Assembly (NCBI GenBank): GCA_028684065.1
Contig: JAQUGO010000001.1
Span: forward strand, 62,001-126,000
Direction: 5' to 3'
Source: Sulfurospirillaceae bacterium
GTDB lineage: Bacteria; Campylobacterota; Campylobacteria; Campylobacterales; Sulfurospirillaceae
Length of the DNA: 64,000 bases
Part shown: piece after piece, positions 13,351 to 15,149 of the stretch
Layout: every line of letters begins with the position of its first letter
Position numbering within the stretch: the first letter of the stretch is position 1
Translations under genes and position numbers: made by a program
The notes under the pieces: model-generated
Told to the model about the DNA's origin: nothing
What the model saw: the letters and a program-made list of their open reading frames with translations, nothing else
Databases searched by the model: none

Positions 13351-13614
13351 ATGTTTAAAGAATTTTTACATGTCAGTCTCGGCAGTATGGTTTTAGTCAA
13401 AGAAAAAATTGAGGAAGAGCTCAAAGTATTACAAGAAAAAGGTAAGATTAACAGTTCAGATGCAAAAAGTTTTATCGACTCCATTGCCCAAAAAGGTGAA
13501 GAAGAAGATGCAAAAATCAAAGCCAAAATTAAAGAAATTCTCAAAGAAGTGATTGATGAGTTAGGCCTTGCCACCAAAGCAGATATTGAGGAGTTACGAT
13601 CAAAACTTTCCTAA
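13351..13614 (+). CDS. Phasin-like small helical protein
   Basis: An 87-residue, lysine- and glutamate-rich protein predicted to be almost all alpha helix or coiled coil (VKEKIEEELKVLQEKGKI ... TKADIEELRSKL). The C-terminal ATKADIEELRSKL pattern is shared with phasin/PhaF-like granule-associated proteins. The start is fixed by an AAAGGAG site 7 bases before ATG 13351. It overlaps the apparent 5' end of the AarF gene that follows. No polyhydroxyalkanoate genes are visible, so a granule role is only a family-based guess. Confidence 0.65.
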   Translation: MFKEFLHVSLGSMVLVKEKIEEELKVLQEKGKINSSDAKSFIDSIAQKGEEEDAKIKAKIKEILKEVIDELGLATKADIEELRSKLS

Positions 13615-15149
13615 ATGCATGGCGCTACACTAATCCTCAAAGGGTTTACCGTGTTTTTTCATTTTTACTAACACTTTATTTACTCTTAAAAAAGAAAGAA
13701 CATTTTCTCTACTTTAAACCCTTAACACCAGAGGCATTAAAAGCGTGTATTATCACTCTTGGCGCTAGTTTTATCAAACTGGCACAAGTGTTGGCCACAA
13801 GAGCCGACTTTTTCTCTCCTAGCTATTTAAATGAGCTCAAATCCTTACACGACCAACTACCGCCAATGCCTTCTAATGAATTTCAAATACTTTTTGAGCG
13901 TGCTTTTCCTAAGAACCCTTTTAGTAATTTTGATACCCTACCTATTGCATCAGCTTCGATTGGACAAGTTCATATTGGTTATCTTGCTGGACAAAAAGTT
14001 GCTGTGAAATTGCGACGCTTTGGTATTAAAGAGCAAGTGTTGTGGGATATTAAAATTATTTCGTTGTTTAACCGTTTATTTCGTCCTCTTTTTTCACATT
14101 ATACAAAAAACTCCATTGAAGCTGTTATTGTTGAATTTTCTGTAATGATTCAACAAGAGGTCAGCATGTTACACGAGCTTGCCAACCTACAAAAATTCTC
14201 ACACGTATATGCAACGTCTAATATCATCTTTCCAAAGCCTTTATCAGAGCATTGTAACGATGATGCTATAGTCATGAGCTATGCAGAAGGCTTTCGTTTT
14301 GATGACAAAGAGGCCCTCTTAAAAGCAAATATTGATTTTAAATCACTTATCTCTAAATTAATACATTTTTACACCGAACAAATGCTTATCAAAGGCTATT
14401 TTCACGCAGACCCTCATCCTGGAAATCTTTTAGTCACACCAGAAGGTAATCTCGTTTTACTTGATTTTGGTATGGTTAAAACTATTTCAAATGAAACGCG
14501 CATCGCTATCATAGAATTGATTAAAGCAGCCCATGAAAGAGATTATGAGTTGTATATCAGTGCAAGCAAGCGTTTAGGTACTATCGCTTATGAAGCTCCA
14601 CAGGCTGAACTGGTACTCTTGAGTGAACGGATGTTTGATATTTTTGGCAATGAAAATTTAAGCAGTGAAACAATGCAAAAACTTGCTTTTGATGTCCTCA
14701 GTTCTACTAAAGATTTGCCTTTTAAATTGCCACAAGAAGCTATTTATATCTTACGTGTCAGTGCCATTATAGAAGGTCTTGGTACAACCTATATCGAAAA
14801 TTTTAACGGTATAAAAGATATTTTACCCCTACTACAAGATAACATACCACGTGCCTTAGGAATGGATAAAGGTATTATTGAGTTTTGTATCAATGAGCTT
14901 AGTACACTGCCGTTACAGCTTAAACATGTTAAAACGACTTTAAAGAAAATCAGCAATAATGAATTGACTGTTCAGCTTTCTACACAGCAGCTCGAATGGA
15001 TAACGAAAGAGTTTAAAAGTGCCATTAAACCTTTTGTCTATGGAGCTATAATGATAATAAGTGCTTGCTTTATGCTCTTGTATGATGCAAGCCTCAAAGA
15101 GCTTTCATTACTACTCTTTGGGCTTGGAATTGCAAGGATTATTTTTTAA
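13599..15149 (+). CDS. AarF/UbiB (ABC1) atypical kinase, probable non-canonical ATC start
   Basis: The ABC1 kinase-like domain shows ASASIGQVHIG, AVKLRRFG, YFHADPHPGNLL and VLLDFGMV, with two hydrophobic C-terminal segments. The first standard start, GTG 13788, cuts into the conserved LGASFIKLAQVLATRADFFS block. The frame stays open back to 13590 and encodes plausible family sequence (NAWRYTNPQRVYRVF) but has no ATG, GTG or TTG. ATC 13599 has GAGGAG (13588-13593) 5 bases before it and may be the true start, overlapping the previous gene by 16 bases. The family acts in isoprenoid quinone metabolism, usually ubiquinone. A conventional annotation would start at 13788. Confidence 0.8.
   Translation: MKTFLNAWRYTNPQRVYRVFSFLLTLYLLLKKKEHFLYFKPLTPEALKACIITLGASFIKLAQVLATRADFFSPSYLNELKSLHDQLPPMPSNEFQILFERAFPKNPFSNFDTLPIASASIGQVHIGYLAGQKVAVKLRRFGIKEQVLWDIKIISLFNRLFRPLFSHYTKNSIEAVIVEFSVMIQQEVSMLHELANLQKFSHVYATSNIIFPKPLSEHCNDDAIVMSYAEGFRFDDKEALLKANIDFKSLISKLIHFYTEQMLIKGYFHADPHPGNLLVTPEGNLVLLDFGMVKTISNETRIAIIELIKAAHERDYELYISASKRLGTIAYEAPQAELVLLSERMFDIFGNENLSSETMQKLAFDVLSSTKDLPFKLPQEAIYILRVSAIIEGLGTTYIENFNGIKDILPLLQDNIPRALGMDKGIIEFCINELSTLPLQLKHVKTTLKKISNNELTVQLSTQQLEWITKEFKSAIKPFVYGAIMIISACFMLLYDASLKELSLLLFGLGIARIIF

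Follow-up and report, generated by a model that had tools for sequence, protein, structure and literature searches.

How is translation of an aarF gene initiated when the 5' part of its reading frame contains none of the codons ATG, GTG, or TTG? This question is raised by a locus in a 64,000-nucleotide stretch of DNA (the window) belonging to a Sulfurospirillum-type member of the Campylobacterales, whose nearest named relatives are Sulfurospirillum records. An earlier note on this DNA had claimed that the aarF frame holds no ATG, GTG, or TTG ahead of position 13788, and that an ATC codon five bases 3' of a GAGGAG sequence is the probable initiation codon. We read the frame from 13590 to 15149 and confirmed the absence of a canonical start: the frame begins GGA GTT ACG ATC AAA ACT and ends with a TAA stop codon at 15147-15149. 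The GAGGAG and the ATC were found where the note had placed them, with a gap of five bases, and the conserved LGASFIKLAQVLATRADFFS block does sit in the aarF frame. The peptide read from the ATC starts IKT and runs directly on to the conserved domain. The aarF frame stands in a -1 relation to that of a small upstream gene, and the proposed start lies inside the end of this gene, within a 16-base overlap. Coordinates are given in Table 1. We consider it very probable that aarF initiates at AUC 13599 through the fMet initiator tRNA, that the weak codon is rescued by a Shine-Dalgarno (SD) sequence of the form AGGA-N6 and a following AAA codon, and that initiation, to which coupling with the upstream gene may contribute, probably gives a low, IF3-limited output.

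Table 1. Features of the aarF junction in the window.
Feature	Position	Strand	Remarks
Small upstream gene, coiled-coil, phasin-like	13351..13614	+	87 aa; last 16 bases overlap aarF
Shine-Dalgarno GAGGAG	13588..13593	+	AGGA core 13589-13592, exactly 6 bases 5' of the proposed start codon
AUC, proposed aarF start codon	13599..13601	+	ATC in all Sulfurospirillum homologs sharing the junction; AUH with the same SD spacing in 68 of 130 Campylobacterales genomes
AAA, second codon of aarF, favorable after a start	13602..13604	+	AAA at codon 2 in 50/68 AUH genomes
Overlap of aarF and upstream gene	13599..13614	+	ATC AAA ACT TTC CTA A / TCA AAA CTT TCC TAA
aarF, ABC1-family kinase CDS	13599..15149	+	516 aa if AUC-started; Pfam ABC1 and COQ8A/ADCK3 fold
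KLAQ motif (UbiB-family KxGQ position)	13776..13787	+	Absent from the product if the start is GTG 13788
GTG (Val64), first canonical in-frame start-like codon	13788..13790	+	Unsupported as a real start

Within the genus the junction is strongly conserved. In 12 aligned Sulfurospirillum species, the AGGA (-10 to -7) and ATCAAAAC (0 to +7) are invariant, while most bases in between are variable. The freely varying (wobble) base is the third position of the upstream gene before the ATC and the third position of the aarF frame after it, i.e., the frame under constraint switches at the ATC. Five genomes (G002, G006, G007, G009, and G017) have an in-frame TAA as the codon directly 5' of the ATC, and because of this stop, aarF-frame translation cannot begin 5' of the ATC in those genomes. 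All Sulfurospirillum homologs sharing this junction, including those with the in-frame TAA, keep the ATC, which supports the proposal that it is the initiation codon; G010, a divergent member of the genus, has a GTG start. Of 24 genus members, ten are without a close aarF homolog, and three of these possess only a distant ABC1 relative of about 26-28% identity. The aarF frame is broken mid-gene in two Sulfurospirillum genomes, near residue 280 in G006 and near residues 240-254, with stops, in G021; these are either pseudogenes or assembly errors.

We then examined the junction across the Campylobacterales, taking one genome for each of 130 species. An AGGA-N6-AUH arrangement (AUA, AUC, or AUU) without any canonical start is present in 57 genomes, and a further 11, five of them Sulfurospirillum, combine it with a nearby NUG lacking an SD, so that in these 11 a downstream start could be used. 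NUG alone is found in 58 genomes, almost always without an SD. In two genomes (G065 and G332) NUG is absent and an AUH codon follows a weaker SD, and two (G241 and G279) were left unclassified. The 68 genomes with the motif have ATA (40), ATC (26), or ATT (2), and the comparison of the corresponding codon in homologs, which the earlier note had recommended, returned AUA, AUC, or AUU at an SD-locked position in several families. Relative to the protein alignment the AUH codon shifts (residues 4, 5, 6, 8, 10, and 11), whereas its distance to the AGGA is constant, a constancy not forced by genome selection for the 57 genomes without NUG (57/59). One expects a position locked to the SD and shifting with respect to the protein if the codon is a start, but not if it is a conserved isoleucine.

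Within gene bodies, an AGGA exactly six bases 5' of an in-frame ATH was found for only 8 of 2954 ATH codons; its occurrence at the start in 57 of the 59 genomes without a canonical start exceeds this chance level. The SD core likewise precedes the start in 57/59 of the genomes without NUG versus 3/69 of the NUG-only sequences, although in most genomes the SD shares bases with conserved codons of the upstream gene, and this adds to its conservation. AAA occupies the second codon in 50 of the 68 AUH genomes, compared with a frequency of 7% at codons 3-12. RNA folding from -25 to +25 differs little between AUH and NUG sequences (means of -5.1 and -5.6 kcal/mol, respectively). The AUA and the upstream stop codon share bases in 38 genomes, as AUAA or AUAG; the genes overlap by 16 bases in 14 genomes, as in the window, and by 13 bases in nine. 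The upstream gene ends 5' of the SD in G360, G370, G381, and G321, and no long upstream frame was found in G262 and G376, and AAAGGA-N6-AUH is still there in all six.

The aarF product matches Pfam ABC1 (PF03109) with an E value of 4e-54, and its best fold matches are COQ8A/ADCK3. Its score against the UbiB equivalog model TIGR01982 is 226 bits, below the NCBIfam cut-off of 487, and by these sequence comparisons it is a member of a UbiB-like ABC1 subfamily and not UbiB proper. The KxGQ motif itself is not found: wherever the motif pattern could be located in a sequence, it reads KLAQ (once KMAQ). The Gly to Ala change at this position runs throughout the subfamily and is nearly invariant among 35 aligned proteins. 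In the related ADCK3 the corresponding KxGQ segment is folded into the active site, and ADCK3 without it has altered activity (PMC4718504). Invariant residues encoded 5' of 13788 include R15, F20, L54, G55, S57, K60, L61, and Q63, among others. The AlphaFold2 model has confident helices from about residue 11, and the first 60 residues are ordered, including the KLAQ helix, which in the model would be cut through by a start at Val64. The small upstream protein has a weak Pfam Phasin match, obtained for 10/10 homologs (best E value 1.3e-7), and the family searches returned nothing beyond it. A small phasin-like gene adjoins aarF from Campylobacterales to Deltaproteobacteria, and its product may assist the kinase in a UbiJ/UbiK-like way.

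These data bear on three other explanations of the junction. The -1 relation between the overlapping frames is what would be needed if ribosomes on the small upstream gene slipped -1 near its end into aarF to make a fusion protein, the ATC being merely internal, and a classical heptamer (e.g., T TTA AAA) does lie right before the stop codon in more than 20 Arcobacter- and Sulfurimonas-type genomes, or 29/68 when all heptamers are counted. However, the remaining 39/68, including all Sulfurospirillum and the window, have no slippery heptamer and so lack the hallmark of the -1 frameshift class. The A of the ATC is conserved even though the upstream frame has it at a third codon position, and the codons 5' of the ATC exhibit no aarF-frame conservation. 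Furthermore, AAAGGA-N6-AUH persists in several genomes whose upstream gene is another one or stops 5' of the SD, and frameshifting from the upstream gene is therefore not a general explanation; we regard it as very unlikely. The idea that the frame relation reflects a sequencing indel near 13600, masking an ATG or fusing the two genes, has a negligible chance of being correct: the relation by itself could hint at an indel, but 12 Sulfurospirillum species sequenced independently share the same bases, and several other families have AUA, AUC, or AUU. The ATG-restoring indel near 13600-13620 that the earlier note had asked to be checked is thereby ruled out.

Alternatively, the true start could be a downstream canonical codon, GTG 13788 in the window, with the conserved upstream stretch untranslated or an old coding remnant. 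This GTG is in frame, and five Sulfurospirillum genomes have a TTG, GTG, or ATG four to five codons 3' of the ATC. A protein begun at GTG 13788 would, however, lack KLAQ as well as the invariant residues at the N-terminus, whereas residues 1-60 are predicted to form ordered helices, that of KLAQ included, and codon-position rates indicate coding constraint from the ATC onward. The position of the first downstream NUG ranges from residue 23 to residue 93, and an SD precedes it in 0/57. We consider a downstream start very improbable, and initiation at the AUC remains the preferred reading.

To follow the start codon through the order, a maximum likelihood tree of the proteins was constructed by a quick search with SH-aLRT supports. 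The start class switches about nine times on this tree. AUH has one main origin, in a 77-leaf clade (SH-aLRT 95) with 65 AUH members, two AUH members with a weaker SD, and 10 NUG members, and some deep branches within the clade are weakly supported. On the simplest reading, the NUG members inside the clade (G397, G343, G340, G214, G306, G173, and the f11 group) are reversions, and where ATG or GTG has replaced AUH at the same site the SD is disrupted. G397 reads AATGATATAAA-ATG at this site, its sister G270 AAGGATCTAAA-ATA (AATGA...ATG versus AAGGA...ATA), and in G343 a broken SD occurs together with a GTG start. An independent-pairs test of start codon against SD found only four well-supported pairs, with a mean of 3.8 concordant and 0 discordant (p 0.125); compensation between SD and start codon is clear as a sequence pattern but is not formally significant. 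Outside the 77-leaf clade, the motif of G312 is embedded in upstream coding sequence and is perhaps a separate case or a false one. Compared with its sister G357, which has a GTGA overlap, the upstream stop codon TAA in G312 turns the aarF GTG into GTA and no canonical start is left; this GTA is possibly an independent, second non-canonical start.

From this pattern we infer that ribosomes use AUC 13599 and that output is low and dependent on IF3. The normal fMet initiator tRNA would read the AUC, poorly paired at its third base, and the strong SD at optimal fixed spacing, together with the AAA second codon, would rescue the weak codon. Ribosomes would reach the AUC within the end of the upstream phasin-like gene, where independent SD binding and translational coupling could both feed initiation. 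Initiation complexes are destabilized by IF3 when the codon is not AUG, GUG, or UUG (as summarized in PMC5472188), and IF3 discrimination would cap the output, which is likely to lie between a few percent and tens of percent of that of an AUG start. The kinase would then probably be made in much smaller amounts than its small partner, similar to the sigR/rsrA pair. Relatives with NUG and no SD would arrive at low output by another route, in line with selection acting on the low output and not on the codon as such. A broader scenario, which we put forward tentatively and think somewhat less likely to be right than wrong, is that a single ancestral switch in the Campylobacterales produced an IF3-gated AUH start of aarF, often as an AUAA or AUAG stop-start overlap, and that stabilizing selection on low output has since kept SD and start codon as a compensating pair; the kinase level would track initiation-factor status and not transcription.

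Very few bacterial genes are known to hold a non-NUG start over the long term, and aarF does so in dozens of species of several families. We found no report of a non-NUG start of aarF, either for the gene or for the Campylobacterota, in the open-access literature, an incomplete sample of what has been published. Natural revertants at aarF make selection on weak initiation, and the trade-off with the SD, directly testable. Gene finders limited to ATG, GTG, and TTG must shorten the kinase and drop its N-terminal motif, and the AUAA overlap suggests searching for stop-start junctions beyond AUGA.

By its sequence features, aarF would be a newly found, widely conserved member of the class of non-NUG starts that comprises infC, pcnB, ccpN, and sigR: it has no AUG, GUG, or UUG at the N-terminus, and its AUH lies behind a well-spaced SD and is conserved in relatives. 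The pcnB gene of E. coli has an AUU start. Like infC (AUU, AUA, or AUC) and pcnB, aarF keeps AUH across species with a good SD, and low, IF3-sensitive initiation may be a further likeness. Unlike them, it is not a translation or RNA-processing gene, has no possible autoregulatory loop, and has its start inside a gene overlap. The parallel with infC drawn in the earlier note holds for the weak-start mechanism, but its autoregulatory part is rejected, as aarF does not encode IF3 and the infC start codon of this order is TTG. The TTG was found in 30/30 Campylobacterales genomes checked, usually just 3' of or overlapping the preceding stop codon, and AUH is therefore not a habit of the classic AUH gene in these genomes.

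The cvfC1 (AUU) and ccpN (AUA) genes of Staphylococcus aureus resemble aarF in their conserved AUH and strong, suitably spaced SD, and S. aureus AUU and AUA starts with a strong or extended SD reach about 10% of AUG, with ccpN attaining as much as 30% when the medium is rich (PMC13009471). These are other genes, in Firmicutes, whereas the AUH of aarF spans several Campylobacterales families, with the stop-start overlap described above. The GTC start of Streptomyces sigR is repressed by IF3, and this weak start in a cotranscribed, coupled pair makes one partner scarcer (PMC5472188), as may be the case for aarF; the GUC of sigR is on the first gene of its pair, and the AUH of aarF on the second. 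Finally, the association of weak starts with a strong SD and of strong starts with a weak SD described by Belinky et al. 2017 (PMC5622118) is also seen around aarF, but their analysis covers AUG, GUG, and UUG, whereas the trade-off at aarF sets AUH against NUG within a single gene.
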